Positions 8,097 to 56,240 of a DNA stretch of 64,000 nucleotides are shown here, piece after piece (the stretch's first letter is position 1; the number at the start of each line of letters is the position of its first letter). Source of the stretch: Polyangium fumosum (lineage in GTDB: Bacteria; Myxococcota_A; Polyangia; Polyangiales; Polyangiaceae); the NCBI RefSeq assembly GCF_005144585.1, contig NZ_SSMQ01000012.1, forward strand, positions 1-64,000. The letters run 5' to 3'. A program made the position numbers and the translations under genes. The notes beneath the pieces were generated by a model that saw nothing but the letters and a program-made list of their open reading frames with translations, was not told where the DNA came from and made no database searches.

Positions 8097-9196
8097 TTGT
8101 CCTCCATCACGCGCCCGCGCCGCGTGCCGGCCTTCATCTTGGCCTCCTGCTCCTGGTAGGTCGGCGCCTCTTCGAAGCGATCGAGGATGCGATCTTCCTG
8201 GCCCGGCTGGGGCTCCGGCGAGGCTGGTTGCGGCGGCGGAGGCGGCGACTGTCCGCCGTCCTGGCCCGCATCCTGGCCCGCGTCCTCTCCGCCGTCGCCA
8301 CCGCCGTCGTCGCCCGCGTCTTTCCCGCCGTCGTCGCCTGCGTCCTCGCCCGCGTCGTTGCCACCGTCGTCGCCGCCGTCGGACCCGTCCGAGCCATCGG
8401 ATCCATCGTCGCCGTCGGCGCCATCACTCGCGTCGTCGCTGCCGTCCTGGCCTGCGTCCTGGTTCGCGTCTTGATCGGCGTCCTGGCCCGCGTCCTTTTG
8501 GTCCTCGATGCGGCGCAGCGCGATGGCGCGGTTCCACGCGGCGTCGCGCCCGATCCCGTCGGCGGACGCGTCCTCGGGCAAACCCGGGATGAGCGCGAGC
8601 GCGTCGTCGTAGTGGCGCACGGCTTCCTCGTACTTCTTCCGCAAGAATTCGAGGTTGCCCGCGAGGTAGTGCGCGCGGGCGCGGAGATCGATCGGGACCT
8701 TCGGATCCTCGGCGATCGCCCGCACGACGATGAGCGCGCAGTCGACCTCGAGCGAGCGCATCGCGGCGAGCTGCTCTTCTTCGGGGCCGCCGTCGCTCTG
8801 CTCCTCCTCGCCGAAGCGCCGGCCGTACTTCTCCGCGACCGAGAACAGCACGAGGCCGAGATCAAACGAGCCGTTGTACTTCTGGCGAACGGCGTCCGGC
8901 AGCCCGAGGCCTGCGTCCGTGCACGGCCCGGTGCCGAGGTAACTTTCGAGGGCCTGCTCGGCCGATTCGAAGCGGCCCGCGTCGAGATCGGCGAGGGCCT
9001 GATCGACCGCGGGCGCGTTGCGTTCGAAGGGCGAGCGAGGATCCCACCCGCTGCACCCGGACGCGAGCCAGGTCGCGCCGCCGGCGACGCAGGCGAGCGC
9101 GAAGACGGCGATCGCCGCGGTCTTGGCGTGGTCGCGGAGCGCGCTCGATGCACGCGCGGCGCGGGCGACGCGCTCTTTGCGATCAGGCCGGGACAC
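8093..9196 (-). CDS. BatC-like TPR protein with an Asp/Gly repeat tail
   Basis: A 367-residue protein at the BatC position. It has one N-terminal membrane anchor (about 27-46, with a possible lipobox-like ASGC), TPR-like helices through about 230, then an extreme low-complexity acidic segment at about 231-316 made of short Asp/Gly/Ala/Gln repeats (AGQDADQDANQDAGQD type). A proline-rich linker and a short basic tail follow. The acidic block could bind cations such as calcium or act as an entropic spacer. Start: GTG at 9196 with an excellent AAAGGAGG six bases upstream, overlapping the batB end by 14 bp. The DNA of the acidic block is itself repetitive (about 8249-8506) and so prone to length change. 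Confidence 0.75.
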   Translation of the reverse strand: MSRPDRKERVARAARASSALRDHAKTAAIAVFALACVAGGATWLASGCSGWDPRSPFERNAPAVDQALADLDAGRFESAEQALESYLGTGPCTDAGLGLPDAVRQKYNGSFDLGLVLFSVAEKYGRRFGEEEQSDGGPEEEQLAAMRSLEVDCALIVVRAIAEDPKVPIDLRARAHYLAGNLEFLRKKYEEAVRHYDDALALIPGLPEDASADGIGRDAAWNRAIALRRIEDQKDAGQDADQDANQDAGQDGSDDASDGADGDDGSDGSDGSDGGDDGGNDAGEDAGDDGGKDAGDDGGGDGGEDAGQDAGQDGGQSPPPPPQPASPEPQPGQEDRILDRFEEAPTYQEQEAKMKAGTRRGRVMEDK

Positions 9197-39925: not shown

Positions 39926-41824
39926 ATGGCTTCTCGAACTCCCGCCCCCGGCGCGATCGTCGACAACAAGTACCGCCTTGCAGAGCGCATCGGCGGTGGC
40001 GGGATGGGCCACGTCTTTCGTGCGGAGAACGTGCTCGCCGGCCGCGCGGTCGCGATCAAGTTCCTCCACCCCGAGCTGTCGGAGAACACCGAGCTCGCGC
40101 AGCGCTTCTTCCAGGAGGCCCAGGCGGTCAACCGCATCCGCCACCCGAACATCGTCGACGTGATCGACGCGGGCGTGGGCGAGATGGGCCCCTACATCGT
40201 GATGGAGCACCTCGAAGGCGAGGGCGTGGGCTCCGCGCTGCAGCGCCTCGGGCGCTTCGACGTCGACGCCTCGGTCGCGACGTGCATCCCCGTCCTCGAA
40301 GCCCTCGACGCTGCCCACCGCGTCGGCATCATCCATCGTGATCTGAAGCCCGAGAACGTCTTCGTCGCGTTCGACGTGTCGCGAGGTCAAGCCGTCGTAA
40401 GGCTTCTGGATTTCGGTATCGCGAAAGTGCTCGACTCGAGCGGGCCCTCGCCGCGCACGCGCACCGGCGTGGTCTTCGGGACGCCCGACTATCTCTCGCC
40501 CGAGCAGGCCACGGGCGACGCGCCGATCGACGGCCGAAGTGATCTCTTCGCCGTGGGTGTGCTGCTCTACGAGCTGCTCACGGGCACGCGTCCCTTCCGC
40601 GCGCCGACGGCCGTGGCGACGGCGTTCCGCGTGGTGCACGCCGAAGCGCCCACGCTCGCCGCGGCAGGCGTGCACGTCGATCCGCGGCTCGAAGCCGTGG
40701 TCGCGAAGCTCCTGCAGAAGGATCCGATGAAGCGCTACGCCACTGCGGGGGAGGTGGCGCGCGAGCTCGATCGGTTCTCGTCGGATCCGACGAAGCGCTC
40801 GACGGCGCTCGGCCGGATCATCAACCTGCATCGACGCGTCGCGCACGCGAGCGTGTCGCAATCCCAAGGCGCGCCTCCGCCCCCGCCGCCGGCCACGATT
40901 CTGCCGGAGCCGGATCGCATGAACACGCCGCTCCGCGAGCCGCCCCCCGTGCCCGCGCCGATCCGGCCCAGCGTGCGGACGAGCTTCACGGATTCCGGCG
41001 CCTCGTCGATGCCGTACGCGCCGACGCGTGTCGTGCCGAGCATGGGGAGCCCAGGCCGTACGAGTGATCCCGGGCCTCCGCCGCGCGGCGACTACATCGC
41101 CTCGCCACGCAACGTCGAGCCGCTCGTGCCTCCGGCGATGCCGAAGCCCCTCGGCGTGGCGCGGAGCACGGCCTCCTCGGCGAGCTCCGCGAACACGTCG
41201 GCGACCTCTTCGAACGCAGGTCCGCCGTCGCGGTACGTCCAGCCGCGCGCAGCGTCGCGGTTCCCGGGGATGTACCAGGTGCGCGGCGCCGTGCTGCGCG
41301 CCGTGGACAAGGCCCTCACCGAGGACGCAGGGCCGCGCGTGCGCGAGCAGGTCGTGGCGCAGCTCCCGCAGCGCTACGCGGAAGACTTCCTCAACGACTC
41401 GATCAACGCGCTCGTCGCGTACGACCTCGAAGCGCTCGACGCGTACATGGAGATCGCGACCGCGATCTCGCTGCACGAGCCTTCCCGATGGCGCGCGCTC
41501 GGCCGTCTCGCGATCGGCGGCGAGCTCCACAACACGGTGCGCAGCGTGCTCCGACCCGCGCCGGATCTTCAGATCGCGATCCGCCGCGGCATCTCGATCT
41601 GGTCGCGGCTCTTCAGCTTTGGCGCATGGAAGGTAGGCGCGAGCCAGAGCGGCAAGGTCGTCCTGCAAATCGCAGAGTTCGAGCCAGCCTCGCTCGCGTT
41701 GCGTCTCTGGGTCGTGGGCATGGTCGAGGAGACCGCGCGCCGCGCCGCGAGCTTCGACGTGCGCGTCGCGATCACCGCAGGCGAGGTCGGGTTCACGCCC
41801 GAGCTGACCTGCGAGATCGTCTAG
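39926..41824 (+). CDS. Ser/Thr protein kinase fused to a TIGR02265/DUF2378-like domain
   Basis: A 632-residue soluble kinase. Gly-loop RIGGGGMGHVF, Lys45 (AVAIKF), HRDLKPEN at 137-144, DFGIAK at 162-167 and SPEQ are all present, so the kinase should be active. A Pro/Ser-rich linker (about 300-440) follows. The last about 190 residues begin VRGAVLRAVDKALTEDAG and resemble the Myxococcus paralogous family TIGR02265 (DUF2378), not a transmembrane sensor. No membrane helix is present. The upstream region has little ribosome-site signal (ATG preceded by CCACCGGCTGA). The dispersed structured element begins three bases after the stop. Confidence 0.78.
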   Translation: MASRTPAPGAIVDNKYRLAERIGGGGMGHVFRAENVLAGRAVAIKFLHPELSENTELAQRFFQEAQAVNRIRHPNIVDVIDAGVGEMGPYIVMEHLEGEGVGSALQRLGRFDVDASVATCIPVLEALDAAHRVGIIHRDLKPENVFVAFDVSRGQAVVRLLDFGIAKVLDSSGPSPRTRTGVVFGTPDYLSPEQATGDAPIDGRSDLFAVGVLLYELLTGTRPFRAPTAVATAFRVVHAEAPTLAAAGVHVDPRLEAVVAKLLQKDPMKRYATAGEVARELDRFSSDPTKRSTALGRIINLHRRVAHASVSQSQGAPPPPPPATILPEPDRMNTPLREPPPVPAPIRPSVRTSFTDSGASSMPYAPTRVVPSMGSPGRTSDPGPPPRGDYIASPRNVEPLVPPAMPKPLGVARSTASSASSANTSATSSNAGPPSRYVQPRAASRFPGMYQVRGAVLRAVDKALTEDAGPRVREQVVAQLPQRYAEDFLNDSINALVAYDLEALDAYMEIATAISLHEPSRWRALGRLAIGGELHNTVRSVLRPAPDLQIAIRRGISIWSRLFSFGAWKVGASQSGKVVLQIAEFEPASLALRLWVVGMVEETARRAASFDVRVAITAGEVGFTPELTCEIV

Positions 41825-41827
41825 CAG

Positions 41828-42166
41828 AGGCGTTGCGCTGGGGCTTTGCCCCAGGCCCCACCAGGGGTTGTCCACCCCTGGACCCGGACCAGCGCAAGCG
41901 CTGGACTCGGGGTCGATGACCTGCGCGGTGCGCAGTTCATCGAACAGCCGCCGTCAAGACCACCAAAGATCTTGCCGACCAAGACCGCAGCGCGGACGGC
42001 TTGACGGGCAACGCCCCGTCGCCAGCTCGACATGCACGCCCGTGGTCTTGCCACCGGCCCGTTGGAAGAACTGCGCATCGCGCAGTTCTTCCATTCCCGG
42101 TCCAGGCCGTGCCTGGTCCGGGTCGAGGGGCGGGCAGCCCCCGCGGGGTCCGGGGCAGCGCCCCGG
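41828..42166. repeat. Dispersed multi-hairpin element, copy A
   Basis: A 339-bp non-coding sequence filling the gap between the kinase stop and the convergent zinc-ribbon gene. Hairpins in order: stem CTGGGGC around TTT (41838-41854); CCAGGGGT around TGTCC; CCAGCGC/GCGCTGG; GATGACCTGCGC arm at 41915-41941 with one mismatch; a less conserved centre; a perfect 13-bp stem GGAAGAACTGCGC at 42064-42092; an imperfect stem around CCAGGC-CGT-GCCTGG; and CCGGGGC around AGC. Left and right arms are themselves roughly inverted, so the whole element is an imperfect palindrome. A second copy lies at 53821-54160. Confidence 0.88.
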
Positions 42167-42176
42167 CTCCGGAGAG

Positions 42177-42722
42177 TCAGGACGGCTTTTCGGCCTGGAA
42201 ACAAGCCCGGCAGTACACCTTCTGGCCTTCGGCTGGCTTGAAGGGGACTGTGGCGGCGACGCCGCAGGCTGCGCACGTGATTGGGAAACCACGACCACGC
42301 GGGCCACGCGGGCTGGAGGAGGCGCGCGGGCTCTGCGTGCGATCTTGGGTGCCGTCTCGCGGGGCTTGGCCTCGGGGAGAGAAGCCGCCGCGGGGAGCGG
42401 GCGAAGCGGGACGGCCGTAGGAAGGGTACAGGGCGAAGTGGGGATCGGGCATCGGGCTCCGGTATTCGTTCACGTCGCCCGTGTATCGGCCGGGGCGCGC
42501 GGGGGGATCGTGCCTTCGGCCTTCGCGCCCGCGCGGAGCGCTGCGGGCTGGGCCCTCGCTGCGGCTCGTGCTCTTCGACCGCTTCTCGCGCCAGCAGGGC
42601 TTGCACAGCGTTGGCGGGGACGAAAGCCCTCGCTCGGCGCGCGCGGCCGCGTCGTCGGCGGAAAAGAGGAACGACGAGCCGCAGCTCGCGCAGTTGATCT
42701 GCTCGTCTCGATGCTGCTCCAT
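42177..42722 (-). CDS. Double zinc-ribbon protein
   Basis: A 181-residue protein with two four-Cys sites. The N-terminal site CASCGSSFLFSADDAAA followed by CKPCWREK resembles the zf-trcl zinc ribbon. The C-terminal site CAACGVAATVPFKPAEG then CRAC resembles a CxxC-~20-CxxC zinc finger. Between them is about 80 residues of Arg/Pro/Ser-rich disordered sequence. Probably nucleic-acid or protein binding. Start: ATG 42722 has GGAG seven bases upstream. A slightly longer frame starts eight codons earlier. The 3' end lies 10 bp from the repeat element. Confidence 0.78.
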   Translation of the reverse strand: MEQHRDEQINCASCGSSFLFSADDAAARAERGLSSPPTLCKPCWREKRSKSTSRSEGPARSAPRGREGRRHDPPARPGRYTGDVNEYRSPMPDPHFALYPSYGRPASPAPRGGFSPRGQAPRDGTQDRTQSPRASSSPRGPRGRGFPITCAACGVAATVPFKPAEGQKVYCRACFQAEKPS

Positions 42723-43088
42723 GGACACTCCGGAAACTCTTCGCAAAGGGCGCGGGTGCTCGGACCCGCGTGCCCGCGTGGTGTGCTCGGCACGCCCCTG
42801 ATTTCACGGCAAAAACGCCCGCCCTTTGTGGGACGAGCGCTCGGAGATCGTGGAGAGCAAGGTGACATGGAGCCCCTCGGGGTCAAGGCGCTCGTTCCTC
42901 GCTTCCACGGGCCGTCCGTGGTCCGCCTCGGCTGTGCGCGACGCGTGAAGACGCGAGGGGATATCACCGCGTTTTGGCCAGTGCTACAAGGGGAGCCACG
43001 ACGCCATTCCGCCTTCGCTACGCACCGCGCGTGACGCTTGTTCGCGTGCACCTCGTGACGTTGTGAAGAGCGCCCTTCGAGCAGAGTG
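42723..43088. other. Intergenic region between divergent genes
   Basis: 366 bp between the zinc-ribbon gene and the KOW-protein gene. I see no RNA gene, repeat or convincing operator. Short open frames here have no ribosome sites and look like GC-rich chance frames. Divergent promoters for both genes should lie here, but no consensus elements stand out. Confidence 0.5.
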
Positions 43089-46309: not shown

Positions 46310-48237
46310 CGACCTTGTCTGTGGATCCCAAGGCGAACGGCGCGAAGGCGGCGGCGCCCGGCAAGACCCGGGCCGAGACGGCGCTCGCGCGCTTCCACGA
46401 GGAGGACCGCCTCGGCGAGGGCCTCGACGCGAACATCCTCGCGGGGCTCTGGCCGTTCATGCGGCCGCACGCGAAGTGGCTCGTCCTCTCGCTCGTGCTG
46501 CTTCTCCTCGGCTCGGGCCTCGCCGTGCTCCAGCCGTGGCTGATGGGGCGCACGTTCGACGCGTTCGAGCATCCCGACGCGGCGCGGACGCTCATGCAGA
46601 TGGGCGCCCTCATTCTCGTCTTGAAGCTCGTCGAGCAGTCGATCGCGTTCCCGCAGGTCTACCTCATGCAGCTCGCGGGCGCGCGCGCGTCGGGGGACCT
46701 GCGCGCGCACGTCTTCCGCTTCCTGCACACGCGCAAGCTCGGCTTCTTCGATCGCACGCCCGTCGGTCGGCTCGTCACGCGTGTCACGAACGACGTCGAC
46801 GCGATCAACGAGATGTTCGCTTCGGGCACGTTGAACGCGATCGGCGATCTCGTGCGCCTCGTCCTCATCATCGTGGTCATGTTGCGCCGCGACTGGCAGC
46901 TCGCGCTGATCACGTTCGTCGCGGTCCCGCCGGTCGCGCTCGGCGTCATGTGGACGCGGCGCCGGATCCGCGACGCGTTCCGCGAGATCCGCGTCAAGAC
47001 GGCGCGCATGAACGCGTACTTGAACGAGCAGATCTCGGGCATGGCCGTGGTGCAGGCCTACGCGCGTGAGGAGCAGAGCGCGCTCGAGTTCGACGACATC
47101 AACGAGGCGTACCGGCAGGCGAACAACCGCTCGATCGTCTTCGATGCGGCGCTCGACGCGGCGATCGAGCTCGTGCAGAGCCTCTGCATCGCGGCCGTGC
47201 TCTGGTACGCGGGCGTCCGTTCGCTCTCGGATCGTGTCTCGTTCGGCACGCTCGTCACGTTCGTCGCGTACATCGAGATGTTCTTCATCCCGATCCGCGA
47301 CCTCTCGGCGCGCATGACGCAGCTCCAGTCGGCGCTGGCCGGCGCGGAGCGTATCTTCCAGCTCCTCGACAACAAGGACGAGGACGCGCCGGTGCCCGCG
47401 GCTGCCGCCGAGGGGCAGGCCGAGAAGAAGGACGCGGGGTTCGGGGCGAAGGACGCCGAAGGCGATCCGGAGCCCCGAGCGTCGACCAGCCTCGCGTTCG
47501 AGCTTGATCACGTCGACTTCGAGTACAAGCCCGGCGTGCCCATCCTCCGCGACGTCTCGATCCACGCGGGCAAGGGCGAGAAGATCGCGCTCGTCGGCGC
47601 GACGGGCGCGGGCAAGACGACGGTCGCGTCGCTGCTCCTGCGCCTCTACGAGGCCAAGCAGGGCTCGGTGCGTGTCTTCGGCCGCGACGTGCGGAACGCG
47701 CCGCGCGACGAGCTTCGCAAGAGTTTTGCGGTGGTGCCCCAGGAGGTCTTCCTCTTCCCCGGCACGATCGCGAGCAACATCGCGGCCGGCGACGTCGAGG
47801 TCGACCGGGCGCGTGTCGTCCGCGCGCTGGAGCGCATCGGCGCGCTCGATCTTTTCGAGCGTCGCGAGGGCGGGCTCGAAGCCAAGGTCGAGGAGCGCGG
47901 ATCGAACTTCTCGGCGGGCGAGCGTCAGCTCATCGCGTTCGCGCGCGCGCTCTACCGCGACCCGCCGATCCTCGTGCTCGACGAGGCGACGGCGAACATC
48001 GACAGCGACACCGAGGCGCGCCTGCAGAAGGCCGTATGGGCCGCGATGCAGGGGCGCACCGCGCTCATCATCGCGCACCGGCTCTCCACGATCCGCGCGG
48101 TCGATCGCATCGTCGTCTTCCACAAGGGACGCGTCGTCGAGCAGGGCAGCCACGAGACGCTGCTCGCGCAGGGCGGGGCGTACGCGCGCCTCTACCAGCT
48201 CCAGTTCAGCCGGACCGAGGCGCACGCCGCGGAGTAG
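46306..48237 (+). CDS. ABC exporter subunit 2
   Basis: A 643-residue partner half-transporter. Six hydrophobic helices and an NBD with Walker A GATGAGKTT (about 430), a signature FSAGERQ that deviates from LSGGQ, and an intact Walker B ILVLDEATANID with catalytic Glu. The altered signature here and the altered Walker B in subunit 1 would meet in the same, degenerate ATP site, the pattern of TM287/288-like exporters; the other site is canonical. An insertion of acidic residues lies before the NBD (about 360-390). The TAG stop at 48235-48237 is followed directly and in frame by a 21-bp tandem repeat. Confidence 0.88.
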   Translation: MTTLSVDPKANGAKAAAPGKTRAETALARFHEEDRLGEGLDANILAGLWPFMRPHAKWLVLSLVLLLLGSGLAVLQPWLMGRTFDAFEHPDAARTLMQMGALILVLKLVEQSIAFPQVYLMQLAGARASGDLRAHVFRFLHTRKLGFFDRTPVGRLVTRVTNDVDAINEMFASGTLNAIGDLVRLVLIIVVMLRRDWQLALITFVAVPPVALGVMWTRRRIRDAFREIRVKTARMNAYLNEQISGMAVVQAYAREEQSALEFDDINEAYRQANNRSIVFDAALDAAIELVQSLCIAAVLWYAGVRSLSDRVSFGTLVTFVAYIEMFFIPIRDLSARMTQLQSALAGAERIFQLLDNKDEDAPVPAAAAEGQAEKKDAGFGAKDAEGDPEPRASTSLAFELDHVDFEYKPGVPILRDVSIHAGKGEKIALVGATGAGKTTVASLLLRLYEAKQGSVRVFGRDVRNAPRDELRKSFAVVPQEVFLFPGTIASNIAAGDVEVDRARVVRALERIGALDLFERREGGLEAKVEERGSNFSAGERQLIAFARALYRDPPILVLDEATANIDSDTEARLQKAVWAAMQGRTALIIAHRLSTIRAVDRIVVFHKGRVVEQGSHETLLAQGGAYARLYQLQFSRTEAHAAE

Positions 48238-48573
48238 GCGTTCCGCGAGGGCGAGGTGGCGTTCCGCGAGGGCGGGGTGCCGTTCCGCGAGGGCGGGGAG
48301 TCGTTCCGCGAGGGCGGGGCGTCGTTCCGCGAGGGCGGGGCGTCGTTCCGCGAGGGCGGGATGTCGTTCCGCGAGGGCGGGGTGCCGTTCCGCGAGGGCG
48401 GGGCGTCGTTCCGCAAGGGCGGTGTGTCGTTCCGCGAGGGCGGGGCGTCGTTCCGCGAGGGCGGTGTGTCATTCCGCGAGGGCGGGGTGTCATTCCGCGA
48501 GGGCGGGGTGTCGTTCCGCGAGGGCGGGGTGTCGTTCCGCAAGGGCGGTGTGTCGTTCCGCGAGGGCGAGGGG
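48238..48573 (+). repeat. 21-bp minisatellite, 16 tandem units
   Basis: Sixteen contiguous 21-bp units begin at the base after the ABC stop codon. The core TTCCGCGAGGGCGGGG is nearly invariant; variation is concentrated in the last three bases and at isolated positions (unit changes to TCATTCC, CCGCAAGG, GCGAGG). 21 is a multiple of three and units lack stops, so all three frames on this strand stay open and each encodes a heptapeptide, for example FREGGVS. No protein is claimed for this. Such arrays can change copy number by slippage. Confidence 0.95.
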
Positions 48574-48655
48574 GCGGGGCGTGCACACGTGTGTGCGAGG
48601 CGCGAGGTCGATGGTTGGAGAGACGAGGGCGAGACCGCGAGGCGGGAGGACGAGG

Positions 48656-49654
48656 CTACGGGGCTTGGGCGCTCAGCTCGTCGGCACGAGCGAGGATGGC
48701 TGTGGAGAGGCGCTCGAAGTCTTCGCGGCAGCGCAGCACCGCATCCATGCGTGCGCCGATGGCACCGTTTGCAGGCTTCAGGTGAAATATCGGCTTCCGT
48801 GCGTCCTGGGCGAGGAGCACCAGGCTGTGATAGTTGCGCATGGTCCCCAGGCACCAGGGGTCAGGCGTGGGGGCAGGCCCCTGCTCTGCGAGCACCGACC
48901 GGTGGTATTCGACCGGGATCTGGTGCAACCATTGATCGTACGCCTTGAGCGCGCGACCCTGCCACGTGGGGACGGTCGACTGCATGACGACGTAGCCGAG
49001 CGGCCTCATGGGAAGAGCCGGTCCAGCGAACTCCGGGGCGGAAGCTCGAGCTAGCTGTTTCGTCCAATCCGTTCGCCAGTTGCGCAACGCGGGCCCAAGG
49101 GCACGAAGCCCCTGCAGGGAGTAGAGGTCGGGGGCCAGGGGAGTGATCATGAAGTCGGCTGCGAGGAGCGCTGCACGACTCATGGCGCCGAGGCCGCGCG
49201 CCACGTCGAAGAGGACGACGTCTGCGTGGTGGCGCTCGGCGGCCACGGTGACGATGCGATGAATGGCCGAGAGGGTGCGCAAGGCCTGGTCGTTGCCATC
49301 GAGCGACCGTACCCACGCATCCGCGAGTTCTTCCTCGAGAGCGTACAGGCCGATATCGCCGGGCACGATCGCGAGCCCGTCTCCCAGGTCTTCCACGTGC
49401 GGTTCATGGGCATCACCGCCACCACGCAGGCCCCGCTGCAAGGCGTCGAGGATGGTTCGTGGCTCGTTTGCCTGGTCGGACCAGAGCTCTTCGAGACGTT
49501 CCTCGTCCAGACAATGGGCTGTCAGGTTGGACTGCGGATCCATGTCGAGGAGAAGCACCCGCTGGCCCTGGTCCACCAGCATGTGGGCGACGTGGTAGAC
49601 GAGGGTCGTCTGGCCGACGCCCCCCTTGTTGTTGAAGAACGCCACGCGCTTCAT
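48656..49654 (-). CDS. ParA-family ATPase with Gln in place of Walker A Lys
   Basis: A 332-residue ParA/Soj-like protein. The N-terminus reads MKRVAFFNNKGGVGQTT, so the signature Lys10 is kept but the Walker A Lys before TT is Gln15 (codon CAG). DMDPQSNLTAH and the rest of the core follow normally (LFDVARGLGAMSRAALLAADF; PLAPDLYSLQGLRALGP). The C-terminal part has the family end KPANGAIGARMDAV. ATP hydrolysis is expected to be weakened or lost (inference). Its ATG overlaps the preceding frameshifted gene as ATGA. No parB-like gene or parS site is visible nearby, so it is not a standard partition locus. Confidence 0.8.
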   Translation of the reverse strand: MKRVAFFNNKGGVGQTTLVYHVAHMLVDQGQRVLLLDMDPQSNLTAHCLDEERLEELWSDQANEPRTILDALQRGLRGGGDAHEPHVEDLGDGLAIVPGDIGLYALEEELADAWVRSLDGNDQALRTLSAIHRIVTVAAERHHADVVLFDVARGLGAMSRAALLAADFMITPLAPDLYSLQGLRALGPALRNWRTDWTKQLARASAPEFAGPALPMRPLGYVVMQSTVPTWQGRALKAYDQWLHQIPVEYHRSVLAEQGPAPTPDPWCLGTMRNYHSLVLLAQDARKPIFHLKPANGAIGARMDAVLRCREDFERLSTAILARADELSAQAP

Positions 49655-51884: not shown

Positions 51885-53807
51885 ATGACCCAAGAAGCCC
51901 CCCCGACCCCCGAAGCGCCGCCGGCCGCGTCTCCTCCCGCCGTGGAGATGCCGTTCCAGGCGGAGGTGCAGCAGGTCCTCTCCCTCGTCATCAACTCGCT
52001 CTACGCGAACCAGGAGGTCTTCCTGCGCGAGCTCGTGTCGAACGCCTCCGACGCGCTCGACAAGGCCCGCTTCCTCGGCCTCACGCGCAAGGACGTGACC
52101 GAGCAGGAAGGTGAGCCCGCGATCTCGATCCAGCTCGACGACGAGGCCCGCACGATCGTCATCGAGGACAACGGCGTCGGCATGACGCGCGACGAGGTCG
52201 TCCAGAACCTCGGCACCATCGCGAAGAGCGGCTCGCTCGAGTTCCTCAAGTCGCACGCCGAGGCCCTGCGCGCGAGCCAGGACAAGGACGGCGCGGTCAA
52301 GCTCATCGGCCAGTTCGGCGTGGGCTTCTACGCGGCGTTCATGGTCGCCGCGCGGGTCGACGTGGAGACGCGCTCCATGCTCCCCGAGGCCGAGCCCGTG
52401 CTCTGGCGCTCCGGGGGATCCGGCACGTTCACCGTCGCGACGGGCGAGCGCGCGCACCCCGGGACGAAGATCACGCTGCACCTCAAGGAGGACGCGCGCG
52501 AGTACACGAAGGCCTACCGGATCAAGGAGATCATCCGCAAATACTCGGACTTCGTGCACTTCCCGATCTCGGTGAACGGCGAGGTCTCGAACCGCAAGGC
52601 GGCGCTCTGGTCGCTGCCGAAGTCGCAGGTGACGGAGGAGCAACACGCCGAGTTCTTCCGGCACGTGACGGGCGGCTACGAGGGCGAAAAGCCGCTCTGG
52701 CACCTGCACGTCTCGATCGACGCGCCCGTGCAGTTCCAGGCGCTGCTCTACGTGCCCGAGAAGGCGCCGCCGGACCTCTTCCAGCGGGATCGCCGCGCCA
52801 TCCGCCTCTACGCGAAGCGGGTGCTCATCGTCGAGGACTGCGACAAGGTCGCGCCGATTTACCTGCGTTTCCTGCGCGGCGTAGTCGACTCCGAGGACCT
52901 CTCGCTCAACGTCTCGCGCGAGATGCTCCAGGAGGACAAGGCCCTGAAGCAGATCGAGACGCAGATCACGAAGCAAGTTCTCAAGGGCCTGAAGGAGCTC
53001 TCGGAGAGCGAGCCCGAGACGTACAAGAAGGTCTGGAACGAGTTCGGCAAGGTCCTCAAGGAGGGCGTGTCGGTCGACTGGAAGAACAAGGACGCGATCG
53101 CGGACCTCTGCCGGTTCGGCTCGATGAACACGCCGGAGGCGGAGCTCATCTCGCTGAAGCAGTACGTCGCGGCGATGCCGGAGTCGCAGAAGGAGATCTA
53201 CTACCTGACGGGTACGAGCCGCCGCGGGCTGGAGAAGAGCCCGCACATCGAGGCCTTCAAGAAGCGCGGCTACGACGTCCTCTTCATGACGGAGCCCGTC
53301 GACGAGTGGGTCGTGCAGACCTTGAACGAGTACGAAAAGCGCCGGCTGCGCAGCATCGCGCACGGCGACATCGATCTCGGCGAGAAGGACGAGAAGGCCG
53401 ACGAGAAGGCGAACGAGCAGATCAAGAGCGCCGTCTCCGCCGTGAAGGCCACGCTCGGCGAGCGGGTGAAGGACGTGCGCGCCTCACGCCGCCTGACCGA
53501 CAGCGCAAGCTGCCTGGTCGCTGCCGAAGGCGATCTCGGCGTCAACATGGAGCGGATCATGCGCATGATGGGCGAGGACGCGCCCCAGGCGAAGCGCATC
53601 CTGGAGCTCAACCCCGAGAGCCCCATCGTGAAGAACCTGAGCGCGCTCGCCGAGAAGGACCCGAGCGCAGAGCCCATCAAGCTCTGGTCCGAGCTGCTCT
53701 ACGAGCAAGCCTTGCTCGCCGAAGGCGTCGTGGTCGACCCGGCCAAGCTCGTGCAGCACATCCAGGATCTGCTCGTCCAGGCCAGCAACGCGGCCGTGGC
53801 GCGGTAA
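51885..53807 (+). CDS. htpG: Chaperone HtpG (Hsp90)
   Basis: A 640-residue bacterial Hsp90. A Pro/Ala-rich N-terminal leader of about 20 residues precedes the GHKL ATPase: NSLYANQEVFLRELVSNASDA, IEDNGVGMTRDEV and GQFGVGFYAAFMVA. Middle-domain and C-terminal dimerisation motifs follow (KRVLIVEDCDKVAPIYLRFL; ASRRLTDSASCLVA). All catalytic residues are visible. A conformational ATPase that helps client folding under stress. No CIRCE element is seen in the 80-bp promoter region. The structured repeat starts 13 bp after the stop. Confidence 0.93.
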   Translation: MTQEAPPTPEAPPAASPPAVEMPFQAEVQQVLSLVINSLYANQEVFLRELVSNASDALDKARFLGLTRKDVTEQEGEPAISIQLDDEARTIVIEDNGVGMTRDEVVQNLGTIAKSGSLEFLKSHAEALRASQDKDGAVKLIGQFGVGFYAAFMVAARVDVETRSMLPEAEPVLWRSGGSGTFTVATGERAHPGTKITLHLKEDAREYTKAYRIKEIIRKYSDFVHFPISVNGEVSNRKAALWSLPKSQVTEEQHAEFFRHVTGGYEGEKPLWHLHVSIDAPVQFQALLYVPEKAPPDLFQRDRRAIRLYAKRVLIVEDCDKVAPIYLRFLRGVVDSEDLSLNVSREMLQEDKALKQIETQITKQVLKGLKELSESEPETYKKVWNEFGKVLKEGVSVDWKNKDAIADLCRFGSMNTPEAELISLKQYVAAMPESQKEIYYLTGTSRRGLEKSPHIEAFKKRGYDVLFMTEPVDEWVVQTLNEYEKRRLRSIAHGDIDLGEKDEKADEKANEQIKSAVSAVKATLGERVKDVRASRRLTDSASCLVAAEGDLGVNMERIMRMMGEDAPQAKRILELNPESPIVKNLSALAEKDPSAEPIKLWSELLYEQALLAEGVVVDPAKLVQHIQDLLVQASNAAVAR

Positions 53808-53820
53808 GGCAGCGGGTCGA

Positions 53821-54160
53821 AGGCGTTGCGCCGGGGTTTCACCCCGGACCCGACCAGGGGTTGTCCACCCCTGGACCCGGACCAGCGCAAGCGCTGGACT
53901 CGGGGTCGATGAACTGCGCGGTGCGCAGTTCATCGAACAGCCAGGGGCAAGACGGGCGACGACACTGCCGACCAAGACAGCAGCGCTGACGTTTCAACTG
54001 GCAACGTACCCGTCGCCAGCTTGGAACCCACCTCCATGGTCTTGCCACCGGCCCGTTGGAAGAACTGCGCACCGCGCAGTTCTTCCACCCCCGGTCCAGG
54101 CCGTGCCTGGTCCGGGTCGAGGGGCGGACAGCCCCCGCGGGGTCCGGGGCAGCGCCCCGG
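53821..54160. repeat. Dispersed multi-hairpin element, copy B
   Basis: A 340-bp second copy of the element at 41828-42166, again filling the gap between two convergent genes (htpG and the antiporter). First hairpin CCGGGGT around TTC (53831-53847) differs from copy A at two stem pairs, T-A to C-G and C-G to T-A, so both copies pair perfectly. The GATGAACTGCGC stem (53908-53934) and the 13-bp stem at 54058-54086 are perfect here. The centre, about 110 bp, is the least similar part of the two copies. Confidence 0.9.
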
Positions 54161-54170
54161 CGCGAGCGGC

Positions 54171-56240
54171 TCACGCGGGCTGCACGTCCCCCTCCAGTGC
54201 CGTGAACAGGGCCTCCGCGCTCGAAAGGGACTCCTCCGAGCCGACGGCGGCGACGATGTCGCCCTCCTCGAGCTGATCCTTCGGGCCGGGCATCATCGAG
54301 GGTTTGCCGTCGCGCACGATCGCGAGGATCGCGGCGCCGGTCTTGGCCCGTAGGTCGAGCTCGCCCAGGGTTCGCCCGACGGCCGTGCTTCCGGGGGCGA
54401 TGCGCAAGAGACGCGGCGCGCCGAGCCCGAGGAGCAACGAGGGCGCGTCGTTCGGAGCGGGGGGCGGCGCCGCGGCGTGACCTTCTCCGTGCGCCGCGTG
54501 CGCTGTCGCCTCGCCGGCGAGCTTTGATTTGAGCACGTCGAGCACGACGGTCCCTCCGGCTTGCACCTCGAGCTCGAATTGCCGGGCGTTCCGCCAGAAC
54601 GAGACGATCGCGATGAAGGCGATCGCCACGAGGAGCAACATGCCGACGCCCGGGGGCACGAAGGGCTCGACGGCCGTGACCGAGGCGGCCGCGGTTGCCA
54701 CGAGGAGCCCGAGCTGCACGACGAGCGCGACGGGACGACCGATCTTCGTGTCGCCCGCGACCGTGAGGCCGATCGCGCGCGTCAGGCGGACGATCCCGAA
54801 GACGAACGGCAATACGACGAGCGCGGCTGCGGCGAAGACGAGCACTTGCGAGGCGCCCTCGCTCAGCCCGAGGGACGAGGCGGCTGCGTGCTGGATGCGC
54901 TCGTGCAAGAGCCCGCCGCCGACGAGGAGCGCCACGAGGAAGGCGGCGTCGAGCACGAGCAGCACGCCGAGGCGTCGCAGCCGTGCGCCTGTCGTCGCGG
55001 CTGCGGGCGCCGTGCGCACGCGCTCGATCCACGCGCTGTAGAGCGTGATGAAGGTGCCGATCCTGCGAGGGACATGGTCCTCGACGAAACGCGCGGCGCC
55101 TTCCGAGCGACGGATCAACGCGGGCGTCGTCAGCGTCGTGATCGCGGAGACCGCGACGGCGACCGCGAAGAGGAACGGGCGCGTCGCGCCGAGCGTGGAG
55201 CCGAGGCCCACGATGATGAACGAGAACTCGCCGATCTGGGAGAGGCTGAGGCCCGCCTGTGCGCTCGTGCGGATCCCGCAGCCCGTCACGATGCCACCGA
55301 GCCCCACGCCGACGACCTTGCCGACGACGACCACGACCGAGAGGACGAGGACCGCGACCCAGTTCTCGAGCACGAGCGAAGGCTCGATGAGCATGCCGAC
55401 CGATACGAAGAAGATGGCCGCGAACATGTCGCGGATGGGGACGATCAGGTGCTCGACGGTGTGCCCTTCGCCGGACTCCGAGATGAGCACGCCCGCGACG
55501 AACGCGCCGAGCGCCACCGAGTAATGCATGGCGGCGCAGGCATGCGCGAAGCCGAAGCAGATCCCGATGCTGGTGACGATGGTCGTCTCGGGCCTGCCGA
55601 GCCGCACGACGTACCGCATGAGCCTGGGCACGACGAGCAGGCCGGCGACGACCATGACGACGAGGAACCCGACGAGCTTGCCGGTCGTGAGCAGAAGCGT
55701 GGTCGCGTCGAGGCCGCTGCCGGTCGCGACGGTGGTCATCACGGCGAGAAGCAGGATCGCGAGGATGTCCTCGACGATGAGGACGCCGTAGACGAGCTCG
55801 CGGAGGCGCGGCTCGATCTTCATCTCGTCGAAGACCTTGGCGATGATCGTCGTGCTGGAGATGGCGATCGCGGCGCCCGCGAAGATGCTCTCGATCTGCG
55901 TCCAGCCGAAGGCGCGACCCACGACGACGCCGGCGCACATCATGAGCGCGACCTGGATGACCGCGATGACGCCCGCGGTGGGCGCGACGCGCACGAGCTT
56001 CTCGATGTTGAGCTCGAGGCCGATCGCGAACATCAGCAGGATGACGCCGAGCTCGGAGAGGGTCTGGACCGTGCTCGTGTCGGCGTTCAGCGGCAGGGGC
56101 AGGTGAGGCCCGACGACGAGGCCGGCGATGATGTATCCGAGGACGACCGGCTGCCGGATTCGCTGAAAAACGACCGTCGTGATCGCCGCGACGCCGAGCA
56201 CGGTAGCGAGGGTCTGAAGGAAGGCGTGCGCGTCCTGCAT
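54171..56240 (-). CDS. CPA2 family monovalent cation/proton antiporter (KefB-like)
   Basis: A 689-residue membrane protein with about twelve hydrophobic helices of the CPA2/KefB fold (VVLGYIIAGLVVGPHLPLP; LLMFAIGLELNIEKL; IVEDILAILLLAVM). Extra hydrophobic segments follow in the middle, and a soluble C-terminal region holds a TrkA-C-like module (GSTAVGRTLGELDLRAKTGA, EEGDIVAAVGSE). No TrkA-N NAD-binding domain is seen, unlike classical KefB. It probably exchanges K+ or Na+ for H+. Start uncertain: ATG 56240 fits best; GTG 56261 would add seven residues. The repeat ends 10 bp from its stop. Confidence 0.82.
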   Translation of the reverse strand: MQDAHAFLQTLATVLGVAAITTVVFQRIRQPVVLGYIIAGLVVGPHLPLPLNADTSTVQTLSELGVILLMFAIGLELNIEKLVRVAPTAGVIAVIQVALMMCAGVVVGRAFGWTQIESIFAGAAIAISSTTIIAKVFDEMKIEPRLRELVYGVLIVEDILAILLLAVMTTVATGSGLDATTLLLTTGKLVGFLVVMVVAGLLVVPRLMRYVVRLGRPETTIVTSIGICFGFAHACAAMHYSVALGAFVAGVLISESGEGHTVEHLIVPIRDMFAAIFFVSVGMLIEPSLVLENWVAVLVLSVVVVVGKVVGVGLGGIVTGCGIRTSAQAGLSLSQIGEFSFIIVGLGSTLGATRPFLFAVAVAVSAITTLTTPALIRRSEGAARFVEDHVPRRIGTFITLYSAWIERVRTAPAAATTGARLRRLGVLLVLDAAFLVALLVGGGLLHERIQHAAASSLGLSEGASQVLVFAAAALVVLPFVFGIVRLTRAIGLTVAGDTKIGRPVALVVQLGLLVATAAASVTAVEPFVPPGVGMLLLVAIAFIAIVSFWRNARQFELEVQAGGTVVLDVLKSKLAGEATAHAAHGEGHAAAPPPAPNDAPSLLLGLGAPRLLRIAPGSTAVGRTLGELDLRAKTGAAILAIVRDGKPSMMPGPKDQLEEGDIVAAVGSEESLSSAEALFTALEGDVQPA

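Follow-up and report, generated by a model that had tools for sequence, protein, structure and literature searches.

A Polyangium-wide family of long, modular, nested palindromes located behind genes

The closest described systems to the element reported here are the REP and BIME palindromes, the REPINs, the MITEs and the ERIC/NEMIS repeats. REPs are given as 20-40 bp in length in the account of PMC3733652, and a REPIN is presented in PMC3116915 as two inverted palindromic halves that form one long hairpin. ERIC and NEMIS are described as short interspersed intergenic repeats that fold as RNA hairpins and are cotranscribed with the flanking genes, and the same source reports for many bacteria that stem-loops favour convergent gaps and the 3' sides of genes (PMC1590033). 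For rRNA hairpins, template switching has been proposed as a process that makes multi-base compensatory changes in one event together with loop inversions, compensatory change with loop inversion being described as extremely rare there (Monttinen and Loytynoja 2022, PMC8794818).

The Polyangium element shares with REP/BIME sequences that it is a high-copy extragenic palindrome, over-represented 3' of genes and seldom found in divergent gaps, and with BIMEs that it is a mosaic of short palindromic modules. It differs from a REP unit in size, a feature on which the likeness failed since the element is mostly 270-350 bp, and from REPs and BIMEs in its two mirrored arms, near-perfect core stems and reverse-complement loop sets. 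Like a REPIN, it consists of two inverted halves forming one long hairpin, but it has at least four hairpins per arm and no associated RAYT. Terminal inverted repeats such as those of MITEs are present, whereas a target-site duplication (132 copies) is not. ERIC and NEMIS resemble it as interspersed intergenic palindromes, a likeness of description and not of sequence; ERIC, at ~127 bp, differs in size, and these repeats belong to other bacteria. Unlike the rRNA case of template switching, reverse-complement loop sets dominate in the Polyangium core hairpins, and dispersed copies, too, seem to trade variants with one another. The element is an unusually long, modular variant of REP/BIME/ERIC-like repeats, akin to them in its working and greater in length. 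We found no published description of such a Polyangium repeat in the open-licence literature, and the main text of the RepRanger paper contains neither Polyangium nor Sorangium or Myxococcus (PMC12306157).

Two copies in the window and the extent of the family

The window is a stretch of 64,000 nucleotides from Polyangium fumosum. The initial annotation had described two copies of a hairpin-rich element in it, here called A and B, each between convergent genes. Both exist where they were placed, with the paired changes of the first hairpin as described, and are 88% identical over 340 bp; as small corrections, the elements run a few bases beyond the ends first given, and the A hairpin at 41913-41943 contains one broken pair. 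The flanking genes, identified by Pfam, place each copy in a convergent gap. The features are as follows, hairpins being listed without strand.

39926..41824, + strand, Ser/Thr protein kinase gene left of A (PF00069), stop codon immediately before A
41828..42170, + strand, copy A, complete element, flanked by the stop codons of two convergent genes
41838..41854, A hairpin H1, left arm, CTGGGGC/GCCCCAG (helix 1 of the 46-copy alignment)
41861..41881, A hairpin H2, left arm (helix 2 of that alignment)
41889..41904, A hairpin H3, left arm (helix 3 of that alignment)
41913..41943, A core hairpin H4, left arm, loop GGT, one broken pair (helix 4)
42063..42093, A core hairpin H4', right arm, loop ATC (helix 5)
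42102..42116, A hairpin H3', right arm (helix 6)
42127..42141, A hairpin H2', right arm (from sequence and stem counts across copies)
42150..42166, A hairpin H1', right arm (helix 8)
42177..42746, - strand, treble-clef zinc-finger gene right of A (PF23477, PF13451), stop codon toward A
51885..53807, + strand, Hsp90 (HtpG-like) gene left of B (PF00183)
53821..54165, + strand, copy B, complete element, flanked by the stop codons of two convergent genes
53831..53847, B hairpin H1, CCGGGGT/ACCCCGG (from sequence, as are the other B hairpins)
53854..53874, B hairpin H2
53882..53897, B hairpin H3
53906..53936, B core hairpin H4, loop GGT
54057..54087, B core hairpin H4', loop ACC
54096..54110, B hairpin H3'
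54144..54160, B hairpin H1'
54171..56240, - strand, Na+/H+ exchanger gene with a TrkA_C domain, right of B (PF00999, PF02080)

Hairpin H1 reads CTGGGGC-TTT-GCCCCAG in A and CCGGGGT-TTC-ACCCCGG in B, which is exactly the pair of stem changes with pairing kept that had been claimed. Compared with dinucleotide shuffles, A and B folded with z scores of -9.3 and -16.3, and 0 of 100 shuffles equalled either. A G+C-rich hairpin followed by a T-run, as in a terminator, was found at 0 sites in 41700-42300 and 53700-54300. Rfam gave no match to the whole window at gathering scores, and none to copy A at E<=1. Elsewhere in the window, positions 48155-48679 hold a tandem repeat with a 21-bp period, within or adjoining predicted ORFs, and positions 8257-8507 hold imperfect repeats spaced 12 bp apart that are CGTCCTGGCCCG-like.

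A search of the window's own assembly (G000; 12.98 Mb in 201 contigs) with copy A as query gave 356 first-look candidates. All 40 places that were scored proved to be near-full matches to copy A at 82-100% identity, so that this genome holds at least 40 copies and, given the 356 candidates, a true number that is higher. The core pattern GAASAACTGCGCNNNGCGCAGTTSTTC occurred there at 86 sites (reversed control, 0), and the core hairpin AACTGCGC-NNN-GCGCAGTT occurred 338 times, about two per element. The five other genomes of the genus (G001-G005) each contained 54 to 488 core hairpins (G002, 434; G003, 230; G004, 217; G005, 488, the most), and the reversed control of the hairpin pattern was 0 in every genome searched. 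Across the 183 genomes searched, the family was present in six of six Polyangium genomes, and the 177 other genomes of the order gave one stray core match. A longer core pattern was found in at least 103 stretches across named genomes and, among the matches listed, all were in three Polyangium assemblies. These copy counts are low estimates because palindromes break assemblies: G000 contigs C3, C21, C47, C48, C54, C118 and C140 terminate in or beside an element. Copies A and B are thus members of a family of nested, interspersed palindromes that spans the genus Polyangium, and the question of further copies, raised when the two were first described, is answered by at least 40 near-full copies, 338 core hairpins and all six genomes of the genus.

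For finding copies, a nucleotide profile HMM took the place of a covariance model. Three weak matches of 31-39 bp in other genera (L040-L042) were considered as relatives and rejected, appearing by eye to be coding and lacking the hairpin array. Self-similarity peaks per 400 kb numbered 6 at about four places in G024, a genome of another genus, versus 22 in G004; these are raw peak counts for G024 and, outside the elements, for G004. A phage, plasmid or viral-contig origin found no match.

A full copy consists of the arm H1-H2-H3-H4, a centre, and the arm H4'-H3'-H2'-H1', the local hairpins of the two arms being mirrored. Each copy is an imperfect palindrome whose centre is more variable than its arms; copies match the reverse complement of copy A at 67-73% along their length, and A matches its own at 68%. 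The ends carry an inverted-repeat consensus of ~12 bp, outside which similarity drops sharply. Such ends, together with sites that are polymorphic between species, would suit a MITE, a non-autonomous DNA transposon that a DDE transposase moves and whose terminal inverted repeats would here read GGCGYNGCGC...GCRNCGCC. However, a target-site duplication is absent (132 copies; mean longest shared flank word 3.16 versus 3.34 in shuffled pairs), which rules against a DDE-type MITE, no full copy lies within a predicted gene, and no pair among 166 copies exceeds 97% identity, and we regard a MITE as quite unlikely.

The absent duplication, the many palindromes and the mirrored pairs that fold as one long hairpin would instead be compatible with a REPIN that travels as single-stranded DNA through the action of a RAYT, the Y1 tyrosine transposase. 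The corresponding domain, PF01797, occurs in three of the six genomes (G000, G001 and G005) but in none of G002, G003 and G004 despite their core sites, and the flanks of the four Y1 loci, up to ~1.5 kb, contain no element. A RAYT/Y1 enzyme was therefore rejected as the mover, and a REPIN origin is highly improbable.

Other repeated sequences adjoin the element. A motif like CTGAGCATTGGTCTCATC recurs directly outside element ends, for example in the flanks of L051, L052 and L053; at L052 it stands on both sides, inverted, and is perhaps a second small repeat or a piece of an outer palindrome. At several sites a stretch of ~320 bp with the repeated motif CTGCAGCGCCGCAA adjoins elements (L175:1214-1540, L201:7770-8090 and L202:18169-18489), the stretches being 78-81% identical between sites.

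Position relative to genes and turnover of sites

Genes were predicted with our own hexamer model and copies were located with the profile HMM. Counting as full any copy of 250 bp or more, we obtained 166 distinct copies with no duplicates, 160 of which had neighbours on both sides. The gene context of these 160 was convergent for 99, tandem for 50 and divergent for 11, whereas convergent pairs made up 177 of 851 gene pairs in the same DNA (binomial p 2e-29 for the excess of convergent copies). None of the 166 full copies lay inside a predicted gene. Seventy shorter pieces were distributed as 31 convergent, 16 tandem, 4 divergent and 19 at an edge. Copy A itself was scored as tandem because the hexamer predictor missed the zinc-finger gene to its right, which Pfam reveals.

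Since this DNA had been fetched for its elements, the count was repeated on 400 contiguous kb of G004 (7.0-7.4 Mb), a control stretch already known to contain some copies. Of the 60 convergent gaps, 9 contained an element or part of one, against 5 of the 212 tandem gaps and 1 of the 60 divergent ones (Fisher p 2e-4). The stretch gave 17 matches, 9 of them full, and one weak piece (33.7 bits) fell within a predicted gene.

Between convergent genes, the two stop codons stood at median distances of 7 and 20 bp from the element; at least one stop codon lay within 30 bp in 98 of 99 such sites, and both did in 65. At tandem sites the upstream stop codon was within 30 bp in 35 of 50 and was the nearer gene end in 42 of 50. 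As to where the copies stand relative to gene ends, then, most follow a stop codon at short distance, and the commonest setting is a convergent gap. REPs less than 16 nt from a stop codon lower translation, according to earlier work cited in the RepRanger paper (PMC12306157).

Sites differ between species in whether they are occupied. The site of copy A is filled in G000 and G004 and empty in G001, G002, G003 and G005, where 56-112 bp stand instead, with simple G+C-rich hairpins seen by eye. The site of copy B could be compared in G004 only, the other four genomes having other DNA beyond the Hsp90 gene. In G004 it holds a hairpin of 31-33 bp (C1 2660244-2660274; L168:445-475) resembling two element ends joined, which looks like an internal deletion product or a minimal form. 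A solo "mini" hairpin was considered as a common progenitor and rejected, as a strict regular expression found 1 in ~1.4 Mb. The site C147:79561 is filled, of the six genomes, only in G000; in G004, G002 and G003 a few bases without a hairpin separate the stop codons, so that a hairpin is not required there. At C133:19783, G004 and G001 are empty and G002, G003 and G005 are filled with other variants. These mixtures of filled and empty sites indicate that sites turn over within the genus.

Paired stem changes, loops and orthologous copies

Pairing was assessed in 46 aligned copies that had been picked out by sequence similarity; eight local helices supplied 66 pairs and 3014 stem cells. Helix 7, an extra right-arm helix that was chosen after the alignment had been seen, was counted only here. 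In these copies 99.6% of the 3014 cells were paired; 95 cells had changed on both sides, 1 on one side, and 13 were unpaired, 8 of the 13 at one loop-closing pair of H3'. The observed pairing, double changes and covariation score were reached by 0 of 500 shuffles, although the 17 further pair types were not above shuffles (192 of 500). Shifting each stem partner by 1-3 columns lowered pairing to 32-47%. When all 166 copies were taken, 44 pairs of the local structure showed double changes. Absence of more copies and loss of pairing in them had been named beforehand as the results that would count against the element; the family is large, and substitutions in the additional copies preserve pairing.

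We recounted in 64 copies that had not been chosen through the hairpin pattern, which demands a near-perfect H4'. The five helices H1, H2, H4, H4' and H2' comprised 3149 cells, of which 3078 were Watson-Crick, 4 G-T, 21 A-C and 46 other, with 128 double-change cells. The looser helices contained 36 A-C and 3 G-T cells (H1'), 20 G-T and 24 A-C (H3) and 84 G-T (H3'), and the centre paired poorly, with up to 129 G-T of 966 cells.

The loops were compared in the 156 of 166 copies with two intact cores. Loops of H4 were GAT, TCC, GGT, ATC, AAT and others, and those of H4' were ATC, GGA, ACC, GTT, ATT and others, largely the same alleles reverse-complemented, at similar frequencies. The pooled loop set overlapped its own reverse complement at 0.86, versus 0.0 for the reverse and 0.0 for the complement; among 48 relabellings of the bases, the runner-up reached 0.32. 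Pairwise diversity was ~0.6 in the core loops, 0.06-0.09 in their stems and 0.23 elsewhere (72 copies). Arms also exchange in H3, where the left arm sometimes has the inverted right-arm stem and the converse occurs as well.

Linkage between variable positions decayed along the element, r2 falling from 0.19-0.22 under 10 bp to 0.02-0.05 beyond 40 bp (53 copies in G000, 55 in G004). The stem pairs of H1, H2 and H4' kept r2 of 0.56-1.0 in both genomes, with exceptions near 0 at the outermost H1 pair, 7-26, and at one centre pair per genome.

These observations bear on whether the element is a structured RNA or folded mRNA 3' end whose covariation is ordinary compensatory mutation under selection for RNA pairing. 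Copies directly behind stop codons, very stable folds and covariation that is strong against controls all speak for it, as do the changes confined to one side of a stem in orthologous copies (27 versus 30 paired; see below). But G-U pairs are nearly absent from the core stems, the loops form reverse-complement sets, the hairpins are nearly unlinked, orientation is not fixed relative to transcription in tandem sites (30 of 50 with the gene), and Rfam offers no match, so that we consider this explanation unlikely.

Both flanks could be matched in the sampled G004 DNA for 23 of 60 full G000 copies, and 18 of these sites were filled in both species, a ratio that is uninformative on how often sites are shared since G004 was sampled mostly at elements. 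Less certain are two of the 18 pairs (L007 and L031), whose gaps measure ~1 kb. The flanks of orthologous copies were 86-96% identical (mean 92%), and orientation was kept in 17 of the 18 pairs (p 1.4e-4). The elements themselves were hardly closer than others: identity was 0.878 between orthologs versus 0.865 between cross-species non-orthologs, and the ortholog was the best match in 3 of 18 cases. Their loops were identical in 8 of 36 comparisons and exact inversions in 3. In the stems of H1, H2, H4, H4', H2' and H1' we counted 30 paired changes, 27 one-sided changes and 4 double changes left unpaired; the frequent one-sided changes argue against a strictly simultaneous process. Four pairs of copies were more than 95% identical (95.5-96.7%). 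In two of them the flanks are unrelated and in a third only a 22-bp word on one side is common to both copies, so that three have essentially unrelated flanks; in the fourth the right flanks are 69% identical.

The weak resemblance of orthologs could mean that copies were inserted independently, in a specific orientation, at the same preferred 3'-end sites and then mutated fast under structural constraint with no gene conversion. The spacers between stop codon and element, which often differ between species, and the one-sided stem changes agree with this. Yet 17 of 18 orthologs are co-oriented, although neither side is preferred in a convergent gap; near-identical junctions occur in some pairs (L252/L232 and L248/L198), and the two arms have a few loop alleles in common, which is unlike unconstrained mutation; we judge independent insertion to be rather improbable.

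Taken together, the scarcity of wobble pairs, the reverse-complement loops and the orthologs that are barely closer than other copies point to copying at the DNA level. The initial annotation had read the coordinated stem change as pointing to selection on secondary structure. The paired changes are real, but by themselves they do not support selection at the RNA level; selection on structure may act alongside DNA-level copying.

A proposed mechanism and its significance

Three natures had been suggested for the element. A palindromic mobile repeat fits best, and a folded mRNA 3' end fits the location. The reading that we prefer, with a probability of roughly 0.6, is that the family consists of interspersed nested palindromes at transcript ends, homogenised by template switching and by recombination between copies, with a role at 3' ends. 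Hairpins would be re-copied by template switching within the palindromes, and ectopic recombination between dispersed copies would swap hairpins; together, re-copying and recombination would keep stems near perfect and homogenise the family. New sites would be colonised by a route that leaves no detectable target duplication. Copies may be tolerated or favoured at 3' ends, where they would replace the simple hairpins seen at some empty sites, because either transcript strand folds into strong hairpins. There they could act as a bidirectional barrier that protects the mRNA 3' end or stops Rho or an exonuclease. We infer this role from the place of the copies and by analogy with the effects reported for REPs.

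A more detailed version of the copying process is put forward tentatively, at somewhat less than even odds. Site and orientation would be inherited, while the hairpins would be cassettes that are continually re-copied or exchanged, hairpin by hairpin, between arms and between dispersed copies, through template switching or through breaks at hairpin tips that are repaired from another copy. Core stems would then stay near perfect, loops would change fastest, and the history of a site would be erased while its flanks diverge by ~8%. The case for conversion is indirect, as fast mutation to a structure-constrained equilibrium would equally make orthologs about as similar as paralogs.

SbcCD was considered as the enzyme that would break hairpin tips. 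A search of G000 for a canonical SbcD gave nothing over the NCBIfam cut-off (best score 51 bits versus 77.65). The best partial match was a metallophosphoesterase of 415 aa at G000:C120:22841 (L319:1501-2748). Long palindromes could persist more easily if the hairpin nuclease were absent or divergent.

Compensatory change is a standard proof of a functional RNA. If DNA-level copying is the true explanation here, the search for new RNAs in repeat families can be led astray by covariation alone, and template switching and ectopic conversion in palindromes would become measurable in Polyangium. The family also suggests that, across a whole genus, many genes have come to be followed by palindromes several hundred bases long.
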